Program-made: the position numbers and the translations under genes
In this document: positions 46,161 to 47,838 of the stretch, one piece after another
Position numbering within the stretch: the first letter of the stretch is position 1
Layout of the letters: the number at the start of each line of letters is the position of its first letter
The notes under the pieces: model-generated
Seen by the model: only the letters and a program-made list of their open reading frames with translations
Databases searched by the model: none
Told to the model about the DNA's origin: nothing
NCBI RefSeq assembly: GCF_003797775.2
Contig: NZ_CP060725.1
Location: 4,612,976-4,676,975, forward strand
Source of the DNA: Sphingopyxis sp. OPL5
GTDB lineage: Bacteria; Pseudomonadota; Alphaproteobacteria; Sphingomonadales; Sphingomonadaceae
DNA length: 64,000 nt
Direction: 5' to 3'

Positions 46161-46829
46161 TCAGGCGGTGCCCATCGCCATGTCGCTGACATAGGGATTC
46201 GTCCGCCGCTCGGCGGCGAAACTGCTGTGCGCGCCGTGCCCGGGCAGGAAGGTCGTGTCGCCGCCGAGCGGCCACAGTTTCTGCGTGATCGAATCGAGCA
46301 GCTGCTGGTGATTGCCGCGCGGGAAATCGGTGCGACCGATCGAACCCTGGAACAACACGTCGCCGACGATCGCGAGCTTCGAGGGGCCGTGGTAAAAAAC
46401 GACATGCCCGGGCGTGTGCCCCGGGCAATGGATGACGTCGATCGTCAGATTGCCGACGCTAACGGTGTCGCCATCGACCAGCCAGCGGTCGGGTTCGAAC
46501 ACTTCGCCCTCCATACCGAAACGCTCGCCGGCGGTGGCGAGTCCCTCGATCCAGAAACGGTCGTCCTCATGCGGCCCCTCGATCGGCACGCCGAGTTCTT
46601 TCGCCAGCACGCCCGCCTGCCCGCAATGGTCCATATGGCCGTGGGTGACGAGGATCTTCTCGACCTCGACCCCGGTCTGGCGCACCGCCTCGCGCAACTT
46701 GTCGAGATCGCCGCCGGGATCGACAAAGGCGCCCTTGTTGGTCTCGGTACACCACAGCAGGGTGCAATTCTGCTGAAAGGCGGTGACGGGGACGATGGCG
46801 GCGCGCAGCGGCGGATTGGGAGCGTTCAT
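46161..46829 (-). CDS. Metallo-beta-lactamase fold hydrolase (YcbL/glyoxalase II-like)
   Basis: A 222-residue metallo-beta-lactamase fold protein. THGHMDHCGQ has the HxHxDH zinc motif (about residues 64-69). Further ligands are in CPGHTPGHVVFY, VGDVLFQGSIGR and LPGHGAHSSF. Length and motifs fit the short YcbL-type glyoxalase II group. The start at 46829 (MNAPNPPLRAA) agrees with the family. It lies 47 bases after nuoA on the same strand, where nuoB would be expected. Confidence 0.9.
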   Translation of the reverse strand: MNAPNPPLRAAIVPVTAFQQNCTLLWCTETNKGAFVDPGGDLDKLREAVRQTGVEVEKILVTHGHMDHCGQAGVLAKELGVPIEGPHEDDRFWIEGLATAGERFGMEGEVFEPDRWLVDGDTVSVGNLTIDVIHCPGHTPGHVVFYHGPSKLAIVGDVLFQGSIGRTDFPRGNHQQLLDSITQKLWPLGGDTTFLPGHGAHSSFAAERRTNPYVSDMAMGTA

Positions 46830-46876: not shown

Positions 46877-47290
46877 TCAATCCCAGTCGAGAGCGCCCTT
46901 TTTCCATTCATAGACGAAGCCGATCGTCAGGATCGACAGGAAGACCATCATCGCGATCCACGCCTCCCAGCCGAGATCGAGCACGACGGCCGCCCACGGC
47001 CACAGAAAGGCCGCTTCGAGATCGAAAATGATGAAGAGGATGGCGACGAGATAGAAGCGCACGTCGAACGGTTTCCGAGGCGACTCGAACGCGGGAAAAC
47101 CGCACTCATATTCGCTGAGCTTCGCGGCATCGGGTTCATGCGTTCCGGTCAGGCGCGACACCGCCATCGGCAGGAAGACGAAGAGCAGCGAGAGGGTGAG
47201 CGCCACACCCAGAAAGATCAGGATGGGCAGATATTCGGCAAGATCGAGGCCGACCGAAAGCGGCGCGCCAGGGGCGGGACGTGAGGGCAT
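46877..47290 (-). CDS. nuoA: NADH-quinone oxidoreductase subunit A, isolated from other nuo genes
   Basis: A 137-residue NuoA of complex I. Three membrane helices (about residues 19-45, 77-98 and 104-126) are present, with [20 protein letters not shown] (about 58-77) the conserved loop. The membrane block [12 protein letters not shown] follows. In most genomes nuoA is directly followed by nuoB, but here the next gene is a YcbL-like hydrolase. A three-hairpin element lies just upstream, ending about 20 bases before the ATG, with AGGAAC as the ribosome binding site. Confidence 0.95.
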
Positions 47291-47310
47291 GATGTTCCTG
47301 CATGTTCGCG

Positions 47311-47362
47311 CCGGGCCGTCCCGGACCTGACACTGCGGAAGGCAGCGGAGGACGTGGCCTCG
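47311..47362 (-). ncRNA. Three-hairpin element upstream of nuoA (copy A)
   Basis: Read 5' to 3' on the minus strand: stem-loop gaggccacgtcctc (47361-47348), stem-loop ctgc/gcag (47345-47333), and stem-loop ccgggacggcccgg (47324-47311). The first and third match copy B upstream of gdx base for base. The middle hairpin has different sequence but is again a stem. The third hairpin has an ACGG loop. Its place in the nuoA leader suggests control of translation, or it could end the gdx transcript. Confidence 0.6.
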
Positions 47363-47399
47363 CTCGACGGGGCCGGGATCGCGCCCGGCGCGCGCGCCA

Positions 47400-47720
47400 T
47401 CAGGCCGGCGACGAAATCTTCATCAGGACAAGGCCGCTGACGATCAGCACCGCGGCGACCATGCGCATCGCACTCGCCTGCTCGCCGAGGACGAGTATGC
47501 CGACCGCAAAGGCCCCGACCGCGCCGATGCCGGTCCAGATCGTATAGGCTGTGCCGAGCGGGAGCGATTTCATCGACAGCGAAAGCAGCGCGAAGCTCGC
47601 GATCATCGTCACGATCGTGACGATCGACGGGACGAGCTTCGTAAAGCCCGCCGACTGCTTCATTGAAAACGCCCAGACGATTTCGAGCGCGCCAGCGATG
47701 ATGAGGTAAATCCAGGCCAT
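47400..47720 (-). CDS. gdx: Guanidinium exporter Gdx/SugE (SMR family)
   Basis: A 106-residue small multidrug resistance protein with four helices. [20 protein letters not shown] holds the essential glutamate (about residue 13) and the WAxxxK segment typical of the Gdx (SugE) subgroup. [12 protein letters not shown] and [18 protein letters not shown] are also Gdx-like. Gdx exports guanidinium in exchange for protons and is often under guanidine riboswitch control. A structured element lies in its leader. It is a single gene, apparently not paired with a second SMR subunit. Confidence 0.92.
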
Positions 47721-47741
47721 GACAGTCTCCCAAAGGAACTG

Positions 47742-47792
47742 CCGGGCCGTCCCGGACTATACCCGCCAGTGGCGGTCGAGGACGTGGCCTCG
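47742..47792 (-). ncRNA. Three-hairpin leader element upstream of gdx (copy B), possible guanidine-II-like riboswitch
   Basis: On the minus strand: stem-loop cgaggccacgtcctcg (47792-47777), stem-loop ccgcc/ggcgg (47775-47763), and stem-loop ccgggacggcccgg (47755-47742), about 20 bases before the gdx ATG. Guanidine-II (mini-ykkC) riboswitches consist of two hairpins with ACGR loops and often precede gdx. The third hairpin fits this (ACGG loop), but the first has ACGU inside a 6-base loop, so the match is partial. The element is duplicated near nuoA. Confidence 0.6.
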
Positions 47793-47838
47793 CGCTGCCC
47801 TTTAGTCACTGCATTCGAAGGAATCAACCGGCGCCCGA

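Follow-up and report, generated by a model that had tools for sequence, protein, structure and literature searches.

Why does one and the same type of RNA leader stand before two neighbouring genes of Sphingopyxis, one for a putative guanidinium exporter (gdx) and the other for a subunit of respiratory complex I (nuoA)? The two genes lie in a 64-kb stretch of DNA that was analysed as a whole and is referred to below as the window. The leader element is a conserved cis-regulatory RNA, a conclusion that we hold with very high confidence. Its comparison with known families suggests that it is a variant of the guanidine-II riboswitch, altered in the loop of its first hairpin, P1, and switching translation on; we put the probability of this reading at roughly 0.78.

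The gdx gene and the two leaders

The gdx gene (47400..47720, minus strand) encodes an exporter of the SMR family, Gdx/SugE type, of 106 amino acids (PF00893, 104.7 bits). Among curated models the protein scores highest with SugE (120.7 bits, which is under the curated NCBIfam cut-off of 126 bits; the next model reaches 71.1 bits). Among solved chains it scores highest with 8vxu (107.7 bits) and with 6wk5 (105.1 bits), which we take to be a Gdx structure, while the best EmrE chain yields 50.6 bits. The product carries the SMR domain and is closer to Gdx than to EmrE/Qac, the Gdx/SugE guanidinium exporters being its best match among models and chains alike. The next gene on the minus strand, nuoA2 (46877..47290), encodes a solitary second NuoA of 137 amino acids (PF00507, 123.9 bits versus a cut-off of 23.3 bits). 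NuoA is the bacterial ND3, and the Pfam name of the PF00507 domain is 'chain 3'.

A sequence-only reading of this DNA had described two copies of a three-hairpin element, and all six hairpins are found where it put them, on the minus strand. From 5' to 3', both leaders consist of P1, a second hairpin (HP2), a third hairpin (P2), and then bases with the ribosome binding site up to the start codon. In the gdx leader, P1 (47777..47792) reads C-GAGG-CCACGU-CCUC-G, HP2 (47763..47775) CCGCC-ACU-GGCGG and P2 (47742..47755) CCGGG-ACGG-CCCGG. In the nuoA2 leader, P1 (47348..47361) reads GAGG-CCACGU-CCUC, HP2 (47333..47345) CUGC-CUUCC-GCAG and P2 (47311..47324) CCGGG-ACGG-CCCGG. The first and third hairpins are indeed identical between the copies, and the middle one differs yet remains paired. 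The latter is real; it belongs to the linker, however, and not to the guanidine-II core. The linker from P1 to P2 measures 22 bases in the gdx leader and 23 in that of nuoA2.

The three hairpins do not exhaust the element, since the earlier description missed a fourth one in the gdx copy, predicted by folding and supported by covariation, that covers the Shine-Dalgarno (SD) sequence (47721..47743, minus strand; GGCAGUUCC..GGGAGACUGUC). Its first GG is common to P2. The corresponding stretch of the nuoA2 leader, from P2 to the start codon (47291..47310, minus strand), contains AGGA and has no SD hairpin in the window strain. The start codon follows P2 at a distance of 21 bases (gdx) or 20 bases (nuoA2), with the ribosome binding site within.

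A third copy, with the P1 loop UCACGU, lies before another gdx of the same genome (G000:C1:3618100-3618177). That gdx sits at tRNA-Trp, and the gdx-nuoA2 cassette lies elsewhere, with no tRNA in L115. At L116-L123 (eight of the ten cassette loci) and also at L064:915-990, the gdx element is preceded on its own strand by a tRNA-Trp gene, 10-14 bases away.

Distribution of the element

An exact pattern, GGCCACGTCC-N10-40-GGGACGGCCC, was searched in 60 genomes together with a backwards pattern as control. It occurs in 26 of them, that is in 26 of the 36 belonging to the window's genus and in none of the 24 from other genera; the control gave no match in the same 60 genomes. Recounted by tblastn, 26 of its 30 places precede gdx and four precede nuoA2. 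A covariance model built from these 30 places, R1, recognises the element in 43 of 396 genomes and 13 of 84 genera of the window's order, and gdx is behind the element in all 43 genomes. Thirty-two of these lie outside the genus, two are further genus genomes and nine were already in the exact-pattern set. The P1 loop is YCACGY in 41 of them; the two exceptions are G390, with ACGA, and G381, with the unusual AGACGGC. Across the class, where stricter filters lost weak matches, R1 was found in 6 of 385 genomes. A search with the Rfam guanidine-II family, RF01068, matched 3 of the 396 order genomes and 19 of 210 class genomes, 15 of the latter over the cut-off. Since R1 finds 43 order genomes (41 with the YCACGY loop) versus three for RF01068, the P1-loop variant is commoner than the canonical form in the window's order, and the canonical form occurs across the class.

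Named genomes scanned with a pattern gave, among the matches listed, 80 loci with 82 places. Sixty-seven of the places listed are directly before gdx, in records titled Sphingopyxis, Sphingomonas, Sphingobium, Novosphingobium, Brevundimonas, Caulobacter, Methylobacterium, Siccirubricoccus, Belnapia, Reyranella and Paracoccus. Two are before nuoA2 (records titled Sphingopyxis sp. LC81 and Sphingopyxis witflariensis), and 13 of those listed, three alphaproteobacterial and 10 actinobacterial, are without gdx. Taken together, the exact-pattern, R1 and named-genome distributions rule out a chance or repeat element. A looser pattern, CCACGTYC-N15-45-GGGACGRCCC, was discarded: it matched 3 of 210 class genomes versus 14 for its backwards control, so that its single class-level matches mean little, and the one in G459 is probably due to chance.

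A second NuoA travels with gdx

The position of the second copy before a nuoA gene had been noted correctly, but this nuoA is a solitary second paralog that travels with gdx. The accompanying idea of a duplicated element flanking the exporter gene has to be abandoned, the second copy being a separately evolving leader in ten genomes of the genus and not a flanking repeat. A role of nuoA2 as head of a nuo operon is ruled out, since the single NuoB of the genome adjoins the other nuoA (G000:C1:3778805-3779173, whose product is 71% identical to that of nuoA2) and the next gene is unrelated. The latter (window positions 46164-46829) encodes a metallo-beta-lactamase-fold hydrolase and is absent from the other nine cassette loci, as judged by tblastn.

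NuoA is present in all 60 genus genomes searched, with two matches in 11. In one of these, G817, a single gene accounts for both matches as two adjoining pieces, so that a second NuoA is present in 10 of the 60. The other nine NuoA2 are 80-88% identical to that of the window and the housekeeping copies 67-73%; exactly one NuoB match occurs in each of the ten genomes, one of them cut by a contig end. Both leaders are recognised by R1 in every one of the ten, with 70-98 bits for the element ahead of gdx and 59-66 bits for that of nuoA2; its training set included four of these nuoA2 leaders and some gdx leaders, but not the other six nuoA2 leaders. The window's nuoA2 leader (47288-47362, 61.3 bits) is one of the training sequences. 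R1 has no match in the housekeeping nuo locus of the window genome or in eight housekeeping nuoA loci of other genomes. In a scan of the family, 8 of 199 genomes have at least two NuoA matches. Two of them, one each from two further genera (G822 and G846), carry the same gdx-nuoA2 pair; G902 and G910 show no gdx at the one NuoA locus examined in each, and G821, G853 and G884 are further genomes with more than one match.

The 12 NuoA2 make up one side of a branch (support 98/86, 52 rows) in a tree of 123 columns whose bootstrap has not settled and in which G822 and G846 have long branches. The median pairwise dN/dS (NG86) is 0.088 for the ten genus NuoA2 (45 pairs), which indicates that they are kept by purifying selection; for 19 NuoA1 it is 0.055 (171 pairs). 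The whole family domain is present in NuoA2. What sets NuoA2 apart from the housekeeping NuoA sampled, besides its solitary gene behind a guanidine-type leader and its separate clade, is the lower acidity of the loop that follows the conserved cysteine. The 12 distinct NuoA2 sequences carry a net charge between -1 and +1 from the cysteine motif to VRF, 10 of them having 0, compared with -3 to -1 for 50 other NuoA, 43 of which have -2, so that the ranges touch at -1; the count leaves aside three more distinct sequences that the search expression did not match. Because NuoA2 is one clade, the change of charge may represent one evolutionary event. The ECGF loop is kept in 11 of the 12, and G846 has serine in place of the cysteine.

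Does the element still act on nuoA2? The copy could be a relic that arrived as gdx and nuoA2 came to lie side by side and that has ceased to regulate nuoA2. The loss of the SD hairpin in the window strain agrees with this, and so does the nuoA2 leader of G822 (L306:2808-2900; R1 20.2 bits), which by its sequence is decayed: its stems are kept, but both loops are gone, that of P2 being GAAA and that of P1 CUUCGU. Nevertheless, 10 of the 12 nuoA2 leaders, all but these two, keep P1, P2 and the SD hairpin, and their middle hairpin is unlike that of the gdx copy. Intact and distinct leaders fit separate maintenance, which makes the relic explanation doubtful. It is more likely than not that the element controls nuoA2 in most carriers. 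Without an SD hairpin in its leader, the nuoA2 of the window strain may be expressed constitutively or be under weak control. The P1 loop of the nuoA2 leader at L304 is CAACGU.

Relation to guanidine-II riboswitches

In the canonical P1 hairpin of guanidine-II, as described in the accessible part of PMC5486947, the loop A-C-G-R directly follows the G of the closing pair, which forms the floor of the ligand pocket, and the R is extrahelical. In both copies described here the loop is CCACGU instead of ACGR, a deviation already pointed out in the sequence-only reading. P2, on the other hand, is canonical in both, with the ACGG tetraloop of guanidine-II (an ACGR loop) on a G+C-rich stem, again as first described. 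The two linkers fall within the 7-40 bases given for the class in an excerpt of PMC7544219, and the genes behind the element are guanidine-related, gdx following 67 of the 82 listed places. A binding-site structure exclusive with the aptamer is predicted for the window's gdx copy and not for its nuoA2 copy.

The Rfam scan of the 64-kb window returned no family at or over its cut-off. When 1.1 kb was searched permissively, no family but guanidine-II matched both copies (47742-47795 and 47311-47365, P2 being the 3' hairpin of each match). The scores, 18.2 and 17.9 bits, are below the gathering cut-off of 32, and the E-values of 0.51 and 0.63 in 1.1 kb are not significant alone; an implausible snoRNA match on the other strand scores higher (22.9 bits). 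At five variant-bearing loci the RF01068 match is absent up to E 5, or weak. Because it lacks both the ACGR loop in P1 and the curated score, the element is classed here as a variant working like guanidine-II and not as a member of RF01068 as now defined.

How far the loop varies can be read from an alignment of 95 rows, A3. It goes back to 90 sources, namely 70 of the 80 listed named-genome loci and 20 chosen from other loci, of which 89 matched (L063 fell short of E 0.01); 10 actinobacterial places, all without gdx behind, were left out. The P1 loop is CCACGU in 87 rows and CCACGC in three, while UCACGU, CAACGA, UAACGU, CUACGAU and ACGA occur once each; 94 of the 95 loops are longer than four bases. 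The variant P1 has two bases, mostly CC, between the closing G and ACG, and its fourth base is mostly U.

The earlier suggestion of a divergent guanidine-II is borne out by the canonical P2, the altered P1 loop and the presence of gdx behind the element almost everywhere. Moreover, the relatives G390 and G083, which pass the Rfam cut-off, have a canonical P1 loop in the same architecture, position and gene context, and two others with a canonical loop before gdx are just below it (G522, 30.0 bits; G846, 27.9 bits). G846 combines both forms, ACGG in its gdx leader and CAACGU in its nuoA2 leader. In a short and poorly resolved Gdx tree of 63 rows, the canonical/variant label requires seven changes, compared with 16 on average after shuffling. 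Thirteen of the canonical rows cluster with a support of 97, together with one variant row, L049, on a very long branch; the canonical L063, L078, L270 and L304 are found among variant rows, as is L269 on a very long branch. The simplest reading of these sequences is that the loop forms were exchanged on one gdx lineage with one ligand.

The likeness to guanidine-II thus comprises two G+C-rich hairpins with CG in their loops, the P2 loop ACGG, a ribosome-binding-site hairpin overlapping P2 and gdx behind. The differences are the 6-base P1 loop, YNACGN, the covarying linker hairpin and the second copy before nuoA2. The P2 loops of the canonical form in the class are ACGG in 10 and ACGA in 11 of the 21 read among 22 loci, and one variant (L048) has ACGC. 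Since these canonical loops vary, a pairing between a fixed G at P2 position 10 and the inserted C of P1 is not claimed. We are fairly confident that the element would work like guanidine-II on gdx.

Could the insertion have changed the ligand instead? It sits at the tight turn whose phosphates, with the closing G, form the canonical pocket (PMC5486947, same excerpt), and in 10 of the 95 rows an A-U closing pair removes the G floor; a pocket altered in this way might accommodate a larger guanidino compound, or the RNA might hold only one guanidinium, where guanidine-II binds two guanidines cooperatively. A variant of guanidine-IV, another class of RNA, with maybe changed specificity provides a precedent (excerpt of PMC9788692). 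However, the gene behind the element is almost always gdx, and the two loop forms coexist on the same gdx lineage, as far as the low-resolution tree goes, and at one locus (G846). A change of ligand is therefore an unlikely explanation, and a guanidine-II variant for guanidinium is the reading followed below.

The public Rfam covariance model misses the variant at its cut-off. An updated consensus figure of guanidine-II was built from 1977 representatives (PMC12335538, in the part available). To judge from the variant, the P1 loop has room for two additional bases, and the way in which it holds its ligand needs a new look. In our searches of one open-access library, we found no account of guanidine-II variant riboswitches in alphaproteobacteria, nothing linking a guanidine riboswitch to nuoA and nothing joining one with NADH or respiratory complex I.

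Covariation and the conserved fold

The sequence-only reading took the compensatory change in the middle hairpin as a sign of conserved RNA structure and named further covarying instances in related genomes, beforehand, as the test of its proposal. Such instances exist. Changes on both sides that keep pairing affect four of the six HP2 pairs in the genus set, A1; in A3 they affect all six HP2 pairs, three of the four P1 pairs and all five pairs of the SD hairpin, so P1, HP2 and the SD hairpin are supported by covariation. The A3 rows were fitted to R1 and are biased towards its structure; in them, 93.0% of cells pair, and P1 pairs in 96.6%. None of 500 shuffles reached the observed values, and sliding the partners lowers pairing to 30-61%.

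P2 shows no variation in the 95 rows of A3, and hence no covariation support there, partly because 70 of the 90 sources came from a pattern that fixes P2. In another alignment, A2, most rows of which were not chosen by the exact pattern, P2 is exactly CCGGG-ACGG-CCCGG in 38 of 42. The closing pair of P1 is G-C in 85 rows of A3 and A-U in 10; by eye, the outer stem of several A-U rows continues beyond a one-base bulge with compensating changes.

That the conserved fold is a long rod, with the P1 arm paired to the P2 arm and HP2 as its tip, for instance in a protein-binding leader and not in a kissing-loop riboswitch, is very improbable: RNAalifold and many single-sequence folds do prefer the rod and 97.7% of A3 cells fit it, but no rod pair changes on both sides, the 10 A-U rows break one rod pair while keeping P1, and the canonical-loop relatives, as read from their sequences, cannot form the same full rod. 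With the rod set aside as the conserved fold, P1 and P2 are taken as the conserved aptamer, and the rod is possibly its off state. The near-frozen P2 may reflect a double duty in rod and aptamer.

Expression platform and proposed mechanism

Of the 95 A3 tails, 86 are predicted to fold with the SD core and also the closing GG of P2 paired, so that P2 and the SD hairpin would compete for two bases; nine tails are without a hairpin sharing the GG. The mean energy of the tails is -11.8 kcal/mol versus -5.4 for base-shuffled ones (50 shuffles each, composition kept), and 88 of the 95 are below their own shuffled mean. For the guanidine-II RNA of Gloeobacter violaceus, the part of PMC5486947 available proposes a potential stem loop that covers the ribosome binding site together with P2 and that could not coexist with the folded riboswitch, and a 2025 review presents guanidine-II as a translational switch promoting initiation (PMC12186494, excerpt). 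As far as these excerpts go, that proposal shares its logic with the present element, SD structure versus folded aptamer.

From this likeness we infer both the ligand and the direction of switching. The aptamer would consist of P1 (loop mostly CCACGU) and P2 (loop ACGG) in loop-loop contact, spaced by HP2. Without ligand, the hairpin that starts with the two Gs of the 3' strand of P2 would sequester the SD sequence. Guanidinium would stabilise the contact between P1 and P2; P2 would then retain its Gs, the SD hairpin open and translation proceed. One such switch would control gdx and a second stands before nuoA2, which travels with gdx, so that guanidinium stress should raise both proteins at once in most carriers.

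A possible role of NuoA2

The linkage with nuoA2 names a complex I subunit as a candidate cellular target of guanidinium. As a tentative proposal, which we consider improbable as it stands, guanidinium might act on its own riboswitch and so induce an exchangeable NuoA, with which complex I would tolerate guanidino compounds. If so, a single inducible cassette would combine export with target replacement, and guanidinium would have a natural target in bacterial complex I. According to excerpts of PMC7614227, the inhibition of mammalian complex I by a model biguanide takes place chiefly in the quinone channel, with a preference for states with disordered loops of NDUFS2, ND3 and ND1. The mammalian ND3 loop beside that channel, the site of biguanide action, is the counterpart of the NuoA loop after the cysteine. 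By analogy, a NuoA that guanidinium induces and whose loop is less acidic would be in line with target replacement. NuoA2 could also help to sustain the proton gradient used by Gdx, which takes two protons per guanidinium (PMC12186494, excerpt), or have no present role.

Elements in other settings

Three variant elements without gdx stand before other genes: L157:2268-2344 before one for an 84-aa membrane protein (Brevundimonas), L187:4229-4295 before a 75-aa ORF (Mesorhizobium MAG) and L197:5269-5347 before a 267-aa ORF (Rhodovastum MAG). The genes behind them are possible further targets of the switch. A weak R1 match (L124:2106-2211, 19.8 bits, E 0.023) lies away from gdx and nuoA2. At L313:3435-3509, an element with the P1 loop UAACGU precedes an apparent gdx remnant, followed by a transporter-like ORF. 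Finally, a Rhodospirillales MAG has two gdx genes (L177:5018 and L177:7280), one behind a CCACGU loop and one behind CUACGAU.
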